Shown piece after piece: positions 56,049 through 64,000 of a DNA stretch of 64,000 bases; position 1 is the first letter of the stretch; the number at the start of each line of letters is the position of its first letter. The DNA is taken from NCBI GenBank assembly GCA_001899255.1, contig MKVX01000023.1:1-64000 (forward strand). The letters are read 5' to 3'. The notes under the pieces were generated by a model. The model was given only the letters and a program-made list of their open reading frames with translations. It was not told the origin of the DNA and ran no database searches. The position numbers and the translations under genes are program-made. Source of the DNA: Rhizobiales bacterium 62-47. Its GTDB lineage: Bacteria; Pseudomonadota; Alphaproteobacteria; Rhizobiales; Xanthobacteraceae.

Positions 56049-57233
56049 GTGGCCACGGCGCCTCCCACGATTGTTATTGCGGGCGCCGGGATCGGGGGAC
56101 TGACCGCCTCGCTGGCATTGGCCGCGAAGGGATTCCGCGTCGTCGTCCTTGAAAAAGCGGAGCGCCTCGAGGAAGCCGGCGCTGGGCTGCAACTGTCGCC
56201 CAACGCCAGCCGTGTCCTCATCGGCCTCGGCCTGAAAGCGCGCCTCGCGGCATGCGCGATTGCCCCCGACGCCGTCAGCATCATGAGCGGACCGCGCGGC
56301 ACCGAACTATCGAAACTACCGCTGGACGCGGCGCAGACGGATGCGCCGTACTGGGTGATCCATCGCGCGGATTTGCAGGCAGCTCTGGCGGCGCAAGTCA
56401 GCGACAATCCCGCGATCGAGTTGCGGCTCGGTTGCCCGTTCGAAACAGCCACGCAACATCCCGAGGGCGTTCTCGTGCGGAGCGGTGGTGGTGCGTCATT
56501 CCGACAGGATTTGGCCAAGGCGCTCATTGGTGCCGATGGCATCTGGTCCAGCGTACGAGATCAAATTGCTCCCGACATCAAGCCTGCTTTCAGCGGGCTG
56601 ATCGCGTGGCGCGGAACGGTCGATGCCGCCAATCTGGCCCGCGAATCCGTGCCGCGCCGCGTTCAACTCTGGATGGGATCGAATGCGCATCTGGTGATCT
56701 ATCCGATGTCCAGCGGCAAGCAGGTCAATGTCGTTGCGATCACGTCGGGCCAATGGCGCGAGCCCGGCTGGAGCATACCGGCCGACGCTTCCGATGTGCA
56801 GGCGCAATTCGCAGCACCGCACTGGTGCGAGGCGGCGCGCGCGCTGGTGAGCGCTGTGACGCAATGGCGCAAATGGGCGCTGTTCACCCTGCCCGAGCAC
56901 GATCGATGGACAAGCGGATCCACGGCACTGCTGGGCGATGCCGCGCACGCCATGCTGCCGTTCGCGGCGCAAGGTGCCGGTATGGCGATCGAAGACGCAG
57001 CCGTCCTTGCATCCTGCCTCGCGCAAAATCCCGACAATGTCCTCGACGCGCTGCGACATTATGCCAACCTGCGTCGGCCGCGCGTCAACCGGGTAGTACG
57101 CACGGCGCGGCAGAATGGCCGCATCTATCATCTCGGCGGCCCACTCGCGGTCGCACGCGACCTTGCCATGCAGGCGCTCGGGGGGCGACGGCTGCTAGCG
57201 CGCCAGGACTGGATCTATAATTGGCGCAATTAA
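56049..57233 (+). CDS. FAD-dependent monooxygenase (salicylate-hydroxylase-like)
   Basis: This 394-residue flavoprotein has the FAD Rossmann motif GAGIGGLTASLALAAKGFRV and the second FAD motif GDAAHAMLPFAAQGAGMAIE. The middle GADGIWSSVRDQI is the DG motif that contacts NADPH. The type is aromatic ring hydroxylase, most like salicylate 1-monooxygenase or UbiH-like enzymes. It starts with GTG at 56049. It may belong with the downstream catabolic cluster but is separated from it by convergent genes; the substrate is unknown. Confidence 0.92.
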   Translation: MATAPPTIVIAGAGIGGLTASLALAAKGFRVVVLEKAERLEEAGAGLQLSPNASRVLIGLGLKARLAACAIAPDAVSIMSGPRGTELSKLPLDAAQTDAPYWVIHRADLQAALAAQVSDNPAIELRLGCPFETATQHPEGVLVRSGGGASFRQDLAKALIGADGIWSSVRDQIAPDIKPAFSGLIAWRGTVDAANLARESVPRRVQLWMGSNAHLVIYPMSSGKQVNVVAITSGQWREPGWSIPADASDVQAQFAAPHWCEAARALVSAVTQWRKWALFTLPEHDRWTSGSTALLGDAAHAMLPFAAQGAGMAIEDAAVLASCLAQNPDNVLDALRHYANLRRPRVNRVVRTARQNGRIYHLGGPLAVARDLAMQALGGRRLLARQDWIYNWRN

Positions 57234-57825: not shown

Positions 57826-58599
57826 TCACCGCTCTGCAAACGCCTTCTCGACGACAAAATGTCCGGCCTCGCCGTGATTGCCTTCGATGAAGCCGCGATC
57901 CAGCAACAGATCTCGGGTATCGTGCAGCAGCGCCGGGCTGCCGCAGATCATCACGCGATCCTTCTCGGCATCGAGATCGGCCAGGTTGACGTCGCGGAAC
58001 AGTTTGCCCGACTTCATCAGGTCGGTGATGCGGCCGCGATTGCGGAACGGATCGCGCGTCACGGTCGGGTAGTAGATCAACTGGTTGCGGATATATTCGC
58101 CGAGGAAGTCATGCTTCGGCAGCGTTTCGGTGATCATCTCGCCGTAGGCCAGTTCGGCAACGCGGCGGCAGCCGTGCAGCAGCACCACTTTCTCGAAGCG
58201 CTCGTAAGTTTCCTGATCCTTGATGACGCTCAAGAACGGCGCGAGACCAGTCCCTGTACCGACCAGATAGAGATTTCGACCGTCGAGCAGATTGTCGATC
58301 ACCAGCGTTCCGGTCGCCTTGCGGCTGACGATGATCTGATCGCCTTCCTTCAGGTGCTGCAGCCGCGAGGTGAGCGGGCCGTCCGGCACCTTGATCGAGA
58401 AGAACTCCAGGTTCTCTTCATAATTCGCACTGGCGACGCTGTAGGCGCGCAGCAGCGGCTTCTCGCCAACCTTGAGGCCGATCATGGTGAATTCGCCATT
58501 GCGGAAGCGGAACGATGGATCGCGCGTCGTCGTGAAGCTGAACAGGTTGTCGGTCCAGTGGTGAACGCTGAGAACGCTTTCGTGATTGAAGTTGCTCAT
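57826..58599 (-). CDS. fpr: Ferredoxin--NADP(+) reductase
   Basis: This 257-residue flavoprotein transfers electrons between NADPH and ferredoxin or flavodoxin. The FAD domain has LLRAYSVASANYEENLEFFS and the NADP domain VGTGTGLAPFLSVIKD and MICGSPALLHDTRDLLLDRG. The C-terminal residues HFVVEKAFAER are the bacterial-type short tail. It is divergent from the enamidase-like gene across an 18-bp palindrome, so it may be part of the same regulon and could feed an oxygenase or a hydroxylase in the degradation path. It is also a common stand-alone housekeeping gene. Confidence 0.95.
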   Translation of the reverse strand: MSNFNHESVLSVHHWTDNLFSFTTTRDPSFRFRNGEFTMIGLKVGEKPLLRAYSVASANYEENLEFFSIKVPDGPLTSRLQHLKEGDQIIVSRKATGTLVIDNLLDGRNLYLVGTGTGLAPFLSVIKDQETYERFEKVVLLHGCRRVAELAYGEMITETLPKHDFLGEYIRNQLIYYPTVTRDPFRNRGRITDLMKSGKLFRDVNLADLDAEKDRVMICGSPALLHDTRDLLLDRGFIEGNHGEAGHFVVEKAFAER

Positions 58600-58685
58600 T
58601 GTTGCTTGTTCCAGGTCAACATCAAGGCGGCAACTTCAGGAAATTCAGGGTCGGCTGCGCGACGGACCGGTTGCCTCGGTGAATA

Positions 58686-58703
58686 TCATTAGTGTACTAA
58701 TGA
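58686..58703. promoter_or_regulatory. 18-bp palindrome, candidate MarR operator
   Basis: TCATTAGT-GT-ACTAATGA (58686-58703) is a perfect 8-bp inverted repeat with a 2-base centre, flanked by ATA-type bases on both sides. It lies about 85 bases from either divergent start. The size and AT-rich form fit MarR-family operators, and a marR gene belongs to the cluster. Confidence 0.65.
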
Positions 58704-58786
58704 ATATGACGACTTGATCGAAGTGTCAAGCCGGGCGCAAACTGACCAAGCTGCCGCGTAAGGCACTGGAATAAAGGGAAGAAACC

Positions 58787-59983
58787 ATGGCGCACGACGA
58801 GCCTCAATCCGCCGGTCCGAGCAAGCTGGTGATCCGCAATATCGGCCTGATCCTGAGCGGCGACCTCAACAAGCCGATCCTGGATGCCGACACCATCGTT
58901 GCCGAAAACGGCAAGATCACCGCCATCGGCCGCGCCAAGGACGTCGATCAGGAAGGTGCCACCACTATCATCGACGCGAACGGTACGACGGTGACGCCGG
59001 GGCTCATCGACAGCCATGTCCACCCTGTGGCGGGCGACTGGACGCCGCGGCAGAACCAGACCAACTGGATCGACAGCTATCTGCATGGCGGCGTGACGAC
59101 GATGATCTCGGCGGGCGAAGTGCATATGCCCGGCCGCCCGAAGGACGTCGTCGGACTCAAGGCGATGGCGGTGTTCGCGCAGCGCGCGTTCTGGACGCTA
59201 CGCCCCGGCGGCGTGAAAGTGCATGCCGGCGCACCGGTGATCGAAAATGAAATGGTCGAGGAGGATTTCAAGGAACTGGCGGCAGCAGGCGTCAAGCTGC
59301 TCGGCGAAGTCGGTCTCGGCGGCGTCAAGGATGGCCCCACCGCACGCAAGATGGTGGGCTGGGCCCGCAAATACGGCATCCAGAGCACGATCCACACCGG
59401 CGGCCCATCGATCCCCGGCTCGGGATTGATCGACAAGGACGTCGTGCTCGAAGCCGACACCGATGTTGTTGGCCACATCAACGGCGGTCACACCGCGCTG
59501 CCCGACGGACAGATCCGCTGTATCTGCGAGGGCTGCAAGCGTGGCCTCGAACTGGTGCACAACGGCAATGAACGCTCCGCGCTCTATACGCTACGCATTG
59601 CACGGGAGATGGGCGACCTTAACCGCGTCATCCTTGGCACTGACGCGCCAGCCGGCTCCGGCGTGCAGCCGCTCGGCATCCTGCGCATGGTCTCGATGCT
59701 GTCATCGCTTGGCGACGTCCCCGCCGAATTGGCGTTCTGCTTCGCCACCGGCAACACGGCACGCATGCGCGCGCTCGATTGCGGCCTGATCGAGGTCGGC
59801 CGCTCGGCGGACTTTGTCATCATGGACAAGGCGCAGCATTCCCCGGGCAAGACGATCCTCGAGAGCGTGCAGCTTGGCGATCTGCCCGGCATCGGCATGA
59901 CGATCATCGATGGCATCGTACGAACACAGCGCAGCCGCAACACGCCGCCAGCCGGCAAAGTGCCGCTGATCGTGCAAAGCTAG
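58787..59983 (+). CDS. Amidohydrolase, enamidase-like
   Basis: This 398-residue metal-dependent hydrolase has the HxH motif in GLIDSHVHPVAGDW and a segment YLHGGVTTMISAGEVHMPGR that closely resembles enamidase of nicotinate fermentation. Further shared segments are VKLLGEVGLGGVKDG, with a likely bridging Glu, STIHTGGPSIPGSG, VVGHINGGHTALPDG, and VILGTDAPAGSGVQPLGILR with the catalytic Asp. Enamidase opens the partially reduced N-heteroaromatic ring by hydrolysing a cyclic enamide. The similarity is from memory of the family and the exact substrate here is not known. It is preceded by the palindrome and followed by a binding-protein gene 161 bases on. Confidence 0.85.
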   Translation: MAHDEPQSAGPSKLVIRNIGLILSGDLNKPILDADTIVAENGKITAIGRAKDVDQEGATTIIDANGTTVTPGLIDSHVHPVAGDWTPRQNQTNWIDSYLHGGVTTMISAGEVHMPGRPKDVVGLKAMAVFAQRAFWTLRPGGVKVHAGAPVIENEMVEEDFKELAAAGVKLLGEVGLGGVKDGPTARKMVGWARKYGIQSTIHTGGPSIPGSGLIDKDVVLEADTDVVGHINGGHTALPDGQIRCICEGCKRGLELVHNGNERSALYTLRIAREMGDLNRVILGTDAPAGSGVQPLGILRMVSMLSSLGDVPAELAFCFATGNTARMRALDCGLIEVGRSADFVIMDKAQHSPGKTILESVQLGDLPGIGMTIIDGIVRTQRSRNTPPAGKVPLIVQS

Positions 59984-60144
59984 GCATTTCGAAAACGCTC
60001 CGGGTAATCCCTCCTCTGCGCCGATTGCACTGCACCCATTCGCCAGTGCCGTAGGCGCAGAGTTTCATTGCTTCGGATCGGAGCATGTGTTGAGCTTGTC
60101 ACAAGCCGCCAGATAAGGCGGTTCAGAACAGGGAGACATGCTCA

Positions 60145-61404
60145 ATGACAAACCCAGTCCTCAACAATGCGGCCGGCATTCAAGCCCGATCGCTACTCGT
60201 CGCCGGGGCCCTTGTTGCAGGGTTAAGTGCACCGGCCCTCGCGCAATCCAACGATCCGATCAAGATTGGCGTCATCGCCGAAGTCCAATCGATTGCCGGC
60301 GCCGCAACGCCGGGCGGCGCGCAGATCGCAGCCGATGAAATCAACGCGAAGGGTGGAATCAACGGCCGCAAGATCGAAATCGTCACCTACGACAACAAGA
60401 GTTCATCGGCCGATTCCGTGCGGGCTTTCCAGCGCGCCGTGTCCGAGGACAAAGTCAGCGCGGTGATCGCCAGCTACATCAGCGAAGTGGTGCTGGCGCT
60501 TGAGCCATGGGCGGCGCGGCTGAAGATGCCGCTGATCACGCCCGGCGCGGCCAGCAACGAAATCACGCGCCCGATCCATGACGACTACGACAAGAACAAA
60601 TACACCTTCCACGGCTACCTGACCTCGGCGGCGCAGGCACAGGCCGTCTGCGACGCCGCCAAGGAATTGCTGGTCGACGGCATGAAGATGAAGACCGCCG
60701 CGATCATGAGCGAGGATGCCGCGTGGACCAAGCCGCTCGACGTCGGCTACGAGGAGTGCCTGCCGAAAGTCGGCCTCAAGGTCACCGATCACATCCGCTT
60801 CTCGCCGGACACCACCGATTTCACACCGATCTTCAACAAGATCGAAGCCCAGAAGCCGGATGTCATCATCACCGGCATCTCGCATGTCGGCGTGCAGCCG
60901 ACAGTGCAGTGGAAGAACCAGCAGGTGCCGATCCCGATGTTCGGCATCAGTGCTCAGGCGTTGAGCCCGACATTCTGGGCCGACACAAACGGCGCGGCCG
61001 AAGGTATCCCCTCGCTGGCCGTGGCGACCGAGAATGTCGCGGTGACGCCGAAGACGAAGCCGTTTGCCGAAGCCTTCAAGAAGAAATTCGGCAAGTCGCC
61101 GGCCTATACCGGCTATACCGCCTATGACGAGGTCTACATCATCACCGACGCCATCAAGCGCGCGGGCTCGACCGATCCCGACAAGATGGTCGCGGAAATG
61201 GAGAAGACCGACTTCGAGGGCACTATCGGCCGCGTGAAATTCTACGGCCGTACCGACAAGTTCACGCACGGCCTGGTCTACGGCGCCGATGCGGTCAACG
61301 GTTTGGTGTTCCAATGGCAGAACGGCAAGCAGGTGACGGTGTGGCCGAAGAAGATCGCCGACGGCACGGTGAAATATCCGGCCTTCGCCAAAGCCTCCAA
61401 CTGA
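60145..61404 (+). CDS. Branched-chain-type ABC substrate-binding protein
   Basis: This 419-residue periplasmic binding protein has a signal peptide (LLVAGALVAGLSAPALAQ) followed by the LivJ/LivK-like fold: IKIGVIAEVQSIAGAATPGG, then QIAADEINAKGGINGRKIEI, then VTYDNKSSSADSVRAFQRAV. It belongs to the receptor family whose members bind amino acids, amides, urea or aromatic acids. The matching permease and ATPases are encoded on the opposite strand just beyond. The ATG at 60145 sits 8 bases after AGGGAGA. A terminator follows. Confidence 0.93.
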   Translation: MTNPVLNNAAGIQARSLLVAGALVAGLSAPALAQSNDPIKIGVIAEVQSIAGAATPGGAQIAADEINAKGGINGRKIEIVTYDNKSSSADSVRAFQRAVSEDKVSAVIASYISEVVLALEPWAARLKMPLITPGAASNEITRPIHDDYDKNKYTFHGYLTSAAQAQAVCDAAKELLVDGMKMKTAAIMSEDAAWTKPLDVGYEECLPKVGLKVTDHIRFSPDTTDFTPIFNKIEAQKPDVIITGISHVGVQPTVQWKNQQVPIPMFGISAQALSPTFWADTNGAAEGIPSLAVATENVAVTPKTKPFAEAFKKKFGKSPAYTGYTAYDEVYIITDAIKRAGSTDPDKMVAEMEKTDFEGTIGRVKFYGRTDKFTHGLVYGADAVNGLVFQWQNGKQVTVWPKKIADGTVKYPAFAKASN

Positions 61405-61423
61405 TCGAGTGACTATCCAATGC

Positions 61424-61451
61424 AACGGCCGGCATTCACTTGCCGGCCGTT
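61424..61451. terminator. Terminator hairpin between convergent genes
   Basis: AACGGCCGGC (61424-61433) pairs with GCCGGCCGTT (61442-61451) across an 8-base loop and is followed by TTGCATTCTG. It can end both the binding-protein gene and the convergent marR. Confidence 0.8.
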
Positions 61452-61477
61452 TTGCATTCTGGAAACGCAGTCGCGCG

Positions 61478-61933
61478 TCAGCGTAATTTCGTCAGCAGCG
61501 CGACGAACAACTCGCGCTCTTTCGGCGTCAGCGGCTCGAGCGTCAGTTCGCTCACCTTGAGCGCGTTGGCGATACATTTGTCGACCAGCGCCTGTCCCGC
61601 GCGTGACAGCTTGACCAGCAAGCGGCGGCCATCGCTCGGATCGGGGCCGGTCTCGGTCAGCCCGCGTGCCGTCAGCCGGTCGATCACGCCTTTGATCGTG
61701 GCGACATCCATCGCCGTCAGCCGACCCAGCTGATTTTGCGAACATGGCCCGGTCTCGGCCAGCTTCGCCATCGCCGCCCACTGCGTTGCAGTGAGGTTGA
61801 CACCAATTTCATTGGCAAAGATCGCGGTATGCCGCTGTGAGACCTGGCGCAAGATGAAGCCGACCTGCTCGTCCAGTCCGTACGTGGGCTTCTGCTGGGC
61901 TACCCGACGTTTGGAGGCGGTAGGTTTTGTCAT
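61478..61933 (-). CDS. MarR-family transcriptional regulator
   Basis: This 151-residue regulator has a winged helix: VGFILRQVSQRHTAIFANEI, then LTATQWAAMAKLAETGPCSQ, then NQLGRLTAMDVATIKGVIDR and RGLTETGPDPSDGRRLLVKL, which is the wing. It is the last gene of the livM-livG-livF-marR set and likely controls the cluster, perhaps through the palindrome at 58686-58703. MarR proteins usually dissociate on binding a phenolic or other small ligand. Confidence 0.94.
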   Translation of the reverse strand: MTKPTASKRRVAQQKPTYGLDEQVGFILRQVSQRHTAIFANEIGVNLTATQWAAMAKLAETGPCSQNQLGRLTAMDVATIKGVIDRLTARGLTETGPDPSDGRRLLVKLSRAGQALVDKCIANALKVSELTLEPLTPKERELFVALLTKLR

Positions 61934-61991
61934 CTGGTATCCCTGATCGGCGTTGTCGAGGAGAACCCTCTGCCATCCTGACGTTTCGGCG

Positions 61992-62696
61992 TCAAACCGC
62001 GAGATGCGCGTCGCGAATATCCGGGCGTGTTTCCAACTCTGCCATCGTGCCGCTGTAACAGATGCGGCCGCGCTCGATGATATAAGTACGATCCGAAATC
62101 AATCGCGCGAAATGCAGATTCTGCTCGGAGACCAGAATGCTCAGGCCTTCCTGTTTCATCGTCAGGATGGCATGCGCCATCTGCTCGACGATCTTCGGAG
62201 AAAGTCCTTCAGACGGCTCATCCAGCAACACCAGCGATGGATTCCCCATCAACGTCCGCGCGATCGTCAGCATCTGCTGCTCACCGCCGCTCATACGGCC
62301 GCCGGGACGATTGCGCATTTCGGCGAGATTCGGGAACAACGTGAACAGCTTGTCCTTGCTCCACAGCGGTGCGCCGCTGCGCGCCGGCTGACGGCCAACC
62401 TCGAGATTCTCCTCGACTGTCAGATCGGTGAAAATCCGCCGCTCCTCGGGGACATAACCAAGCCCGCCGCGCACGATGGCATGGGTCGGTTCTTTCGAAA
62501 CATCCCTGCCCTCGAACAGAATCCGGCCTTCGCGCCGCGCCACCAAACCGACGATAGAACGAAACGTCGTCGATTTACCCGCGCCATTGCGGCCAAGCAA
62601 CGCGACGACCTCGCCAGCGTCGACATCAAGCGCGACGTCGAACAGGATATGCGCCGGTCCGTAATAGCTGTTGAGCGCCGCAACCGACAGCTTCAT
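61992..62696 (-). CDS. livF: Branched-chain-type ABC transporter ATPase LivF-like
   Basis: This 234-residue ATPase has Walker A LLGRNGAGKSTTFRS, signature MSGGEQQMLTIARTL and Walker B LVLLDEPSEGLSPKIV. The C-terminus has the D-loop and switch-His region of the LivF group. It starts within the last 4 bases of the upstream livG (62693-62696), so the two are coupled. The gap to marR downstream is 58 bases. Confidence 0.93.
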   Translation of the reverse strand: MKLSVAALNSYYGPAHILFDVALDVDAGEVVALLGRNGAGKSTTFRSIVGLVARREGRILFEGRDVSKEPTHAIVRGGLGYVPEERRIFTDLTVEENLEVGRQPARSGAPLWSKDKLFTLFPNLAEMRNRPGGRMSGGEQQMLTIARTLMGNPSLVLLDEPSEGLSPKIVEQMAHAILTMKQEGLSILVSEQNLHFARLISDRTYIIERGRICYSGTMAELETRPDIRDAHLAV

Positions 62697-63484
62697 GCGC
62701 CCGCCCCCTCGCGATGCCGCGCGTCATATACCAGCCCCTCGCCCAGATAAATCGCCCGCACCTGCGGATCGCGCCGCACATCATCCGGCGAGCCTTCGGC
62801 GATCAGCGCACCGCGATTGAGCACCAGGATACGATCTGCGTGCTCGAATACCACGTCCATGTCGTGCTCGGTGAACAATACGCCGATCGCGTGTTCGCGA
62901 GCGACGCGCGCCGTCAGCCGCATCAGCTCGATGCGTTCGCGCGGCGCCATGCCGGCAGTCGGTTCGTCCATCAGCAACAATTTCGGACGATTGGCGAGCG
63001 CGATAGCGAGTTCGAGCCGTTTGAGATCGCCATAGGCGAGCTCGCCGCATGGCCGGTCGGCATAGCCGCCGACGCCGACCAGCTCAAGCAAACGATCCGC
63101 CTCGTCGCGTTGGAATGCCGGGGTCGAGCGCCAGACATTGAAGATACAATTGGCGTGCGACACCAGCGCGACCTGCACGTTCTCGCGCACCGTCATGGTC
63201 GGGAATGTGGCGGTGATTTGGAACGTGCGGCCGACGCCGAGCCGCCACACCGCGCGCGGCGGCCTGCCGGTGATGTCATCGCCCAACAACTGCACGCGCC
63301 CGCGATCCGGTGTCTTCTGGCCGTTGAGCATGTCGAAGCAGGTGCTCTTGCCGGCGCCGTTGGGACCGATCAGCGCCAGGATTTCACCTGCAGCGAGCGA
63401 AAACGAGACGCCGCGCACGGCATGCACGCCGCCATAGGATTTGCTCAAATCCTCGACCGCCAGCAATGTGGGCGCCATGCTCAT
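62693..63484 (-). CDS. livG: Branched-chain-type ABC transporter ATPase LivG-like
   Basis: This 263-residue ATPase has Walker A IGPNGAGKSTCFDML, signature LAYGDLKRLELAIALAN and Walker B LLLMDEPTAGMAPRERIELM, with GVLFTEHDMDVVFEHADRIL as the H-loop. The signature is a YGDxKR form common in LivG. It overlaps livF by 4 bases and the preceding livM by 4 bases, giving a tight translational chain. Confidence 0.93.
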   Translation of the reverse strand: MSMAPTLLAVEDLSKSYGGVHAVRGVSFSLAAGEILALIGPNGAGKSTCFDMLNGQKTPDRGRVQLLGDDITGRPPRAVWRLGVGRTFQITATFPTMTVRENVQVALVSHANCIFNVWRSTPAFQRDEADRLLELVGVGGYADRPCGELAYGDLKRLELAIALANRPKLLLMDEPTAGMAPRERIELMRLTARVAREHAIGVLFTEHDMDVVFEHADRILVLNRGALIAEGSPDDVRRDPQVRAIYLGEGLVYDARHREGAGA

Positions 63485-64000
63485 TCCGCACCTTCAGCTT
63501 GCGAAGCGCCCGGCAAGGCGCGCTTGAAGAACGGCAGACGGCCGTTGTCGACGAGGCTGCCGAAAGTGCCGACGATGCCCTTCGGAAATGCCACGACGAT
63601 CAGCACGATGAAGCCGCCAAGCACCAGCTTGGACAGATCGGTGTAACTGACCAGCCAGATGCTCAGCGCCTTGTAAACGATGGCGCCGATCACTGCGCCG
63701 GATACGGTCTCGACGCCGCCGAGCAGCACCATCACCAGCGAATCCACCGACAACGCAATGCCCGCGTTGTCCGGGAAAACGCTACCCTTGAGATAAGCGA
63801 ACAGCGCGCCAGAAATGCCTGCGAAGGTTCCGGCAATGACGAAGGCCGTCCATTGGATGCGCTTGCTGTTGAGCCCGATGGCTTCGCTTCGCAGGCCGGA
63901 GTCGCGGGTCGCCCGCAGCGCGTAACCGAACGGCGAGAACACCAGAACGCGCAGAAGCGTTACCGAGACGGCAGTGACAAACAGCGCCAGCCAATAGAAT
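63481..64000 (-). CDS. livM: Branched-chain-type ABC permease LivM-like, C-terminal part
   Basis: The frame runs off the right edge. It reads LALFVTAVSVTLLRVLVFSP, then FGYALRATRDSGLRSEAIGL, then IQWTAFVIAGTFAGISGALF and VLLGGVETVSGAVIGAIVYK. The FGYALRATRDS loop is the LivM motif that contacts the ATPase. The missing N-terminus and a LivH-type partner permease are expected beyond 64000. It overlaps livG by 4 bases. Confidence 0.93.
   Translation of the reverse strand, partial: FYWLALFVTAVSVTLLRVLVFSPFGYALRATRDSGLRSEAIGLNSKRIQWTAFVIAGTFAGISGALFAYLKGSVFPDNAGIALSVDSLVMVLLGGVETVSGAVIGAIVYKALSIWLVSYTDLSKLVLGGFIVLIVVAFPKGIVGTFGSLVDNGRLPFFKRALPGASQAEGAE

Follow-up and report, generated by a model that had tools for sequence, protein, structure and literature searches.

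The right end of the DNA analysed here (the window, the first 64 kb of the 501,811-base contig MKVX01000023.1 in the 4.9-Mb, 23-contig genome of Rhizobiales bacterium 62-47) raises the question of which compound is imported and opened by the genes found there. An original prediction on positions 57826-64000 had placed in them a reductase, an enamidase-like gene, a receptor and livG-livF-marR, all of which were located where it had put them, and had proposed a pathway that it could not recognise for an aerobic lineage. With a probability of roughly 0.9, these positions are the left part of a cluster for the import and breakdown of nicotinate (vitamin B3), which occupies positions 57826-76071 of the contig (coordinates beyond 64 kb continue the numbering of the window). 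A nicotinate hydroxylase, a 6-hydroxynicotinate reductase (Hnr) and an enamidase occur together here, as the Azorhizobium-type cluster requires, and the sequence assigns the locus to the Azorhizobium-type aerobic nicotinate pathway via tetrahydro-6-oxonicotinate. This is not a new pathway, since its cluster was published for Bradyrhizobiaceae in 2012, and the route that had gone unrecognised is thus the one in print for Azorhizobium and Bradyrhizobium (PMC3511419). Gene content, homology, synteny and a common site were computed, and the chemistry was taken from papers and general knowledge on Azorhizobium and Eubacterium barkeri. The features of the cluster are as follows.

57826-58599, minus strand: FNR, ferredoxin--NADP(+) reductase, the probable electron supplier of Hnr (Pfam NAD_binding_1 and FAD_binding_6)
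58686-58703, no strand: candidate operator TCATTAGTGTACTAATGA, a palindrome between the divergent fnr and ena genes
58787-59983, plus strand: enamidase, an amidohydrolase (PDB 2vun match, shared motifs)
60145-61404, plus strand: periplasmic receptor of the LivK type, a local extra (Pfam Peripla_BP_6)
61478-61933, minus strand: MarR-family regulator, last gene of the run from hnr to marR (Pfam MarR)
61992-62696, minus strand: LivF-type ATPase of the importer (NCBIfam/Pfam)
62693-63484, minus strand: LivG-type ATPase of the importer (NCBIfam/Pfam)
63481-65370, minus strand: livH-livM fusion permease of 629 amino acids, with its C-terminal part within the window
65445-66734, minus strand: second receptor, sbp2
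66771-67361 and 67358-67942, minus strand: two DUF1185 proteins
67962-68858, minus strand: UPF0280 protein
68855-70351, minus strand: hnr, 6-hydroxynicotinate reductase
70437-70454 of the contig: twin of the candidate operator, TCATTCGTATACTAATGA, between hnr and nicA
70515-71189, plus strand: open reading frame of nicA, with a likelier ATG start at about 70689 as judged by eye (2Fe-2S domains)
71176-74697, plus strand: nicB (molybdopterin and cytochrome c domains, three CXXCH motifs)
74767-76071, plus strand: pncB, nicotinate phosphoribosyltransferase
76452-77114, plus strand: TetR-like gene, named by eye

The amidohydrolase was matched to the E. barkeri enamidase (PDB 2vun) over residues 12-392 of 398 with an E-value of 4.3e-112 and 48% identity, which bears out the enamidase-like character first proposed. 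Five motifs of the metal-site type (HxH, E174, His, His and Asp) were common to both proteins (5/5), these being the residues that bind the metal in 2vun, and the segments DSHVH, GEVGLGG, HTGG and HINGG and the Asp of TDAP lined up with their 2vun counterparts. All five motifs, including the Glu of GEVGLGG, were conserved in each of the 10 orthologs examined. Moreover, the enamidase orthologs formed one clade in the tree (support 100/100) and 2vun lay on the ortholog side of the tree (95/80) along with a single distant member on a long branch, its exact placement being unsure; the amidohydrolase was not placed in any clade of proven unrelated activity. By its sequence, the protein is an enamidase of the E. 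barkeri type, predicted to open 1,4,5,6-tetrahydro-6-oxonicotinate. A second enamidase-like hydrolase of the genome, with approximately 40% identity (L029:7680-9519, contig C5 at about 119679-121518), adjoins a DUF1185 gene and carries Lys where the enamidase has Glu.

The hydroxylase missing from the window had been supposed to lie beyond 64 kb, and NicA (at about 70689-71189) and NicB (71176-74697) were indeed found there, the genes right of 64000 being nicotinate catabolic genes and not an ordinary amino-acid operon. The proposed import and opening of an N-heterocycle very probably holds. The name of Hnr rests on the published cluster and on homologs, 66-74% identical, in 26 plasmid records, 17 of these 26 homologs being annotated as 6-hydroxynicotinate reductase and the remaining nine left unnamed or called 'hypothetical'. 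Its AlphaFold model was unusable, with a predicted local distance difference test score (pLDDT) of 35, and a weak GCV_T_C match, the sole Pfam hint up to an E-value of 5, was not used. 

In the nicotinate fermentation of E. barkeri, an anaerobe, hydroxylation is followed by ring reduction by Hnr and by enamidase opening to 2-formylglutarate, later steps leading to propionate and pyruvate. The present cluster shares hydroxylation, ring reduction by Hnr and ring opening by the enamidase with that system, whereas its hydroxylase has cytochrome c domains. In the Pseudomonas putida nic pathway, a dioxygenase carries out ring opening once 2,5-dihydroxypyridine has been formed, with neither Hnr nor enamidase; common to both are a first step of the NicAB type and a regulator of the MarR type. 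That pathway is outlined in PMC9304392. The nearest published system is of the same lineage as the window organism: the cluster was shown in Azorhizobium caulinodans, Bradyrhizobium japonicum, Rhodopseudomonas palustris and strain SG-6C, the last of which degrades nicotinate and 6-hydroxynicotinate (PMC3511419). The part of that paper that describes the cluster mentions no operator, MarR ligand residues, FNR, pncB, possible ApbE-like nature of UPF0280 or replacement by HyuAB, and the word 'ferredoxin' does not occur in the text. 

According to the proposed mechanism, nicotinate would be taken up by the Liv-type importer, its presumed transporter, and hydroxylated by NicAB to 6-hydroxynicotinate, the electrons passing through the cytochrome c domains of NicB. 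Hnr would then reduce this product to 1,4,5,6-tetrahydro-6-oxonicotinate, probably with electrons supplied by the neighbouring FNR via ferredoxin. Finally, the enamidase would release 2-formylglutarate and ammonia, and the former may be decarboxylated and oxidised to glutarate, a putative branch.

The conservation of the locus was assessed in 149 genomes of the family, of which 44 had close enamidase orthologs (at least 79% identity), 44 had Hnr and 42 had both. The enamidase appeared without Hnr in G116 and G148 (72% and 58% complete genomes, respectively), and Hnr without the enamidase in G059, where a contig end cuts the cluster, and in G123, with no enamidase match at an E-value of 1e-50 in the genome. 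Furthermore, the best 80 of at least 568 loci, mostly from Bradyrhizobium and reaching up to 10 kb beyond the enamidase (the named loci), presented the recurring order fnr-ena-marR-livF-livG-livHM-sbp2-aas-upf-hnr. The genes hnr-upf-aas-sbp2-livHM-livG-livF-marR were colinear in all 42 named loci holding all eight of them, and FNR was adjacent to the enamidase in 72 of the 80. Blocks were rearranged and yet retained in other genomes of the family, such as those of L037-L041.

Two details of the importer differ from the original prediction. What had been described as livM alone is a livH-livM fusion ending at 65370, and the receptor that had been singled out, at 60145-61404, was present in one of the 80 named loci, in comparison with 62 for the second receptor at 65445-66734 (some of the other 18 loci are merely cut). 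The first is therefore a local extra and the second is the conserved receptor. Among nearly all relatives examined, the receptor at 60145-61404 was absent from the cluster, the one exception being G093 (L048/L049), a close relative. The best PDB match of the conserved receptor was 3i45 (E-value of 1.3e-153), which we take to hold nicotinate; a literature search pairing 3I45 with nicotin* found no paper. Import of an N-heterocycle is very probable, with nicotinate as the putative ligand.

Several points weigh against the nicotinate assignment or parts of it. The ligand of the importer is itself inferred; no Pfam or NCBIfam model naming the protein matched Hnr at an E-value of 1e-5, and the identity of Hnr to its E. 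barkeri counterpart is known solely through the figure for SG-6C (42%, PMC3511419), not by direct comparison. As regards the electron supply, FNR matched NCBIfam NF008178 with an E-value of 2.9e-46 and 157.8 bits, under the cut-off of 390, none of the cluster genes was identified as a ferredoxin, and FNR need not be dedicated to it because a second FNR-like stretch, with 69% DNA identity, lies on contig C3 of the genome. Eight named loci lack an adjacent FNR: contig ends truncate three of them, L055 has the gene only as fragments, in L086 it lies about 3.2 kb away, and L059, L060 and L064 show none beside the enamidase despite enough DNA; nor was FNR found in 6 of the 17 plasmid stretches.

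Two other explanations of the cluster were weighed. The amidohydrolase could be an ordinary hydantoinase or dihydropyrimidinase acting on another N-heterocycle, a lactam or a hydantoin, as its fold family is broad, with weak matches to 57 NCBIfam models (the best 25 all far under their cut-offs) and a match to the hydantoinase 1gkr at an E-value of 4e-6. However, 1gkr was the next chain after the enamidase, which scored 378 bits compared to no more than 29.4 bits for any other PDB chain. Moreover, the Glu of LGEVGLGG is common to the enamidase and replaced by Lys in all 20 of the more distant family members examined (the alignment around it being poor in two), and the cluster also encodes Hnr and NicAB, which leaves this explanation the least probable of those considered, with only a slight chance of being right.

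A cluster serving mainly vitamin uptake and the salvage of nicotinamide adenine dinucleotide (NAD), with breakdown secondary, was judged very improbable too, if marginally less so. Searches of the genome gave no NadA or NadC, each of which was recovered from 12 of 14 controls; the sole PncB-like match of the genome is the cluster gene at 74767-76071, and a search of seven genomes of the genus gave no NadA in any of them. A. caulinodans, an NAD auxotroph, also exhausts nicotinate by catabolism (PMC2650096). Salvage, however, has no need of the hydroxylase, the reductase or the enamidase; NadA was present in 27 of the 44 Hnr-bearing genomes, and G072, of the same genus, had no match for NadA and none for the enamidase or Hnr either. 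The loss of NadA was also tried as a correlate of the cluster and not used (missing in 17 of 44 Hnr-bearing versus 26 of 105 other genomes, Fisher P = 0.11). Under the preferred reading of nicotinate breakdown, the failure to find NadA and NadC means that supplying NAD synthesis may be a further role of the importer.

The palindrome noted earlier between the divergent reductase and amidohydrolase genes was confirmed and found to recur. This 18-base sequence is located at both divergent promoters (fnr/ena and hnr/nicA), the only two places in the whole genome with up to one mismatch; three further places matched at three mismatches, and a reversed control gave none. Allowing up to three mismatches, the site was found upstream of ena/fnr in 78 of 78 named loci (two of the 80 being short of upstream DNA) and of hnr/nicA in 47 of 47 (leaving out loci short beyond hnr), against a background of 32 matches elsewhere in 1.58 Mb. 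For loci L030-L128, the proportions were 94 of 95 and 55 of 55, respectively, with no site before the enamidase in L043, and in the rearranged loci L037-L041 the sites still preceded the separated genes. Most species with the site are closely related, and ancestry contributes to its conservation. The site was weaker and in part no better than background in the distant plasmid clusters, appearing at up to three mismatches in 16 of 17 stretches (not in L166), a result not used as proof since about 0.6 matches are expected per 29-kb stretch; in these clusters, only better-matching, promoter-placed sites are meaningful. No site was found at this threshold in L042.

The regulator itself was compared with BpsR of Bordetella (6pcp), with an E-value of 7.1e-25 and 91 bits, being nearer to the uncharacterised 2nnn (156 bits). 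BpsR contacts 6-hydroxynicotinate through Tyr15, His23, Arg26 and His32 (PMC6837509), which correspond in the alignment to Y18, F26, R29 and H35. The MarR fold and the Tyr, Arg and His are thus retained at the same spacing (three of four contacts), unlike His23, which is Phe26 here. Each of these four residues was invariant in 88 of 88 MarR sequences, some genomes being counted twice through different loci. The P. putida regulator NicR is stated not to conserve the BpsR ligand residues (PMC6837509). On these grounds, the MarR protein is probably a 6-hydroxynicotinate-responsive repressor and is predicted to bind the 18-base palindrome; through this common site, it would repress both divergent promoters until 6-hydroxynicotinate appears.

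The UPF0280 gene was found in all 44 Hnr-bearing genomes of the 149 searched, no more than 2 kb from Hnr in 42 of them, the remaining two being split over contigs. A single genome, G077, had UPF0280 and no Hnr match, its UPF0280 gene starting 19 bases from a contig end. Against the Pfam ApbE model, the protein scored 25.2 bits (E-value of 1.4e-5), just below the curated cut-off of 25.6, and the G123 homolog scored 18 bits; a search of the genome with the same model gave no match at an E-value of 0.001, UPF0280 included. Foldseek searches with a structural model of the L049 ortholog (pLDDT of 77.5) returned, after the uncharacterised DVU1097, the flavin transferases FmnB, ApbE and Ftp at E-values of 2e-5 to 1e-3 and a probability of 1.00, with template modelling scores of only 0.33-0.45 and root-mean-square deviations of 7.5-13 Å. 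Since Hnr of E. barkeri reportedly carries a covalently bound flavin (Alhapel 2006 abstract), this protein, which looks ApbE-like, would be a natural candidate for the flavin transferase of Hnr. Two observations speak against that role: the motif D-x-x-S/T-G/S-A-S/T, the canonical target of flavin transferases, is missing from Hnr (the nearest is DHITGV at residue 262), and Hnr has 10 cysteines, while the three Fe-S clusters that the E. barkeri enzyme is said to hold would need 12 ligands. A literature search for UPF0280 found no paper.

As for DUF1185, four copies occur in the genome, two of them in the cluster at about 7 kb from the enamidase, a third beside the enamidase paralog on contig C5 and a fourth (L149) near no such gene. 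It was located within 5 kb of 28 out of 43 distant enamidase paralogs, compared to about 0.1 expected at random, and was present in all 17 plasmid Hnr loci examined (14 of them with two copies). Out of 150 DUF1185 places, 75 were within 6 kb of Hnr or UPF0280, 29 were near an enamidase paralog and 46 were near neither. A role as a partner of the enamidase only was weakened by its presence in all 10 HyuAB clusters examined; a role once the ring has been opened is a better fit, yet leaves unexplained G123, which has HyuAB, no enamidase and no DUF1185 match in its genome. HcdD, a DUF1185 protein of a coumarin pathway, had no measurable effect, and TgnF, cited as its homolog, stimulates semialdehyde oxidation in trigonelline breakdown (PMC7913881). 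DUF1185 may act on the ring-opened aldehyde acid. In two other genomes, at L130:7643-9118 and L144:4986-6491, an HpaB-family flavin monooxygenase is encoded next to such enamidase paralogs and DUF1185, which suggests an oxygenative ring-opening pathway.

A second ring opener is likely in clusters lacking the enamidase. Close enamidases (70-76% identity) were present in 16 of the 26 plasmid records, and no match was obtained at an E-value of 1e-60 in the other 10, the search covering the plasmid records alone. Of the 26 loci, 17 were examined, comprising 7 of the 16 with an enamidase and all 10 without. In each of the latter 10 (L150, L152, L153, L156, L157, L158, L160, L163, L164 and L165), the cluster included HyuA and HyuB, with 60-85% identity to the pair of Neorhizobium, itself one of the 10. 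No such pair was found in the cluster of the seven enamidase-bearing plasmid loci, L161 having a 41% pair about 10 kb away. In addition, HyuA/HyuB occurred in G123, of the same family as the window organism, with a run of hnr-upf-fnr and no enamidase match genome-wide, and at L042:2494-5967, in an Hnr cluster without enamidase. HyuA/HyuB, a hydantoinase-oxoprolinase pair predicted to open lactams in an ATP-dependent manner, apparently replaces the enamidase in these clusters; a literature search joining hydantoinase with nicotinate dehydrogenase found no paper. In the Rhodobacterales records L151 and L161-L165, the nicotinate cluster was observed on plasmids of 92-404 kb, one of them predicted to be conjugative. 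A wider proposal, offered tentatively and with the odds rather against it, is that the clusters are modular: the ring would be opened by either the enamidase or the unrelated, ATP-dependent HyuA/HyuB of the oxoprolinase type, UPF0280 would attach the flavin of Hnr, and DUF1185 would act after opening, for example by decarboxylating 2-formylglutarate to glutarate semialdehyde. If true, UPF0280 and DUF1185, the two proteins of the pathway that lack an assigned function, would each gain one.

On either side of the cluster, other genes were considered. The monooxygenase at 56049-57233, dependent on flavin adenine dinucleotide, was set aside as a NicC-like candidate, its best NCBIfam matches (PRK06475 and 3-hydroxybenzoate 6-monooxygenase) being both under cut-off and its position beside the cluster recurring in two of the 80 named loci; this judgement was made without any model specific for NicC, NicX, NicD or NicF. 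After the cluster, at about 77140-87932 of the contig (L004:7141-17933), two more Liv-type transport cassettes and a cytochrome P450 gene were observed, from open reading frames read by eye.

Overall, a cluster at the edge of the window was identified, and an aerobic lineage was tied to a ring-reducing route known chiefly from an anaerobe. The locus is a published kind of cluster in a further member, and the predictions that go beyond it are computational only. These can be tested: the repressor site, the flavin transferase for Hnr, the role of DUF1185 near enamidase-type enzymes and the replacement of the enamidase by HyuAB. Furthermore, the apparent want of genes for de novo NAD synthesis suggests that the vitamin broken down by this bacterium is one that it requires as well.

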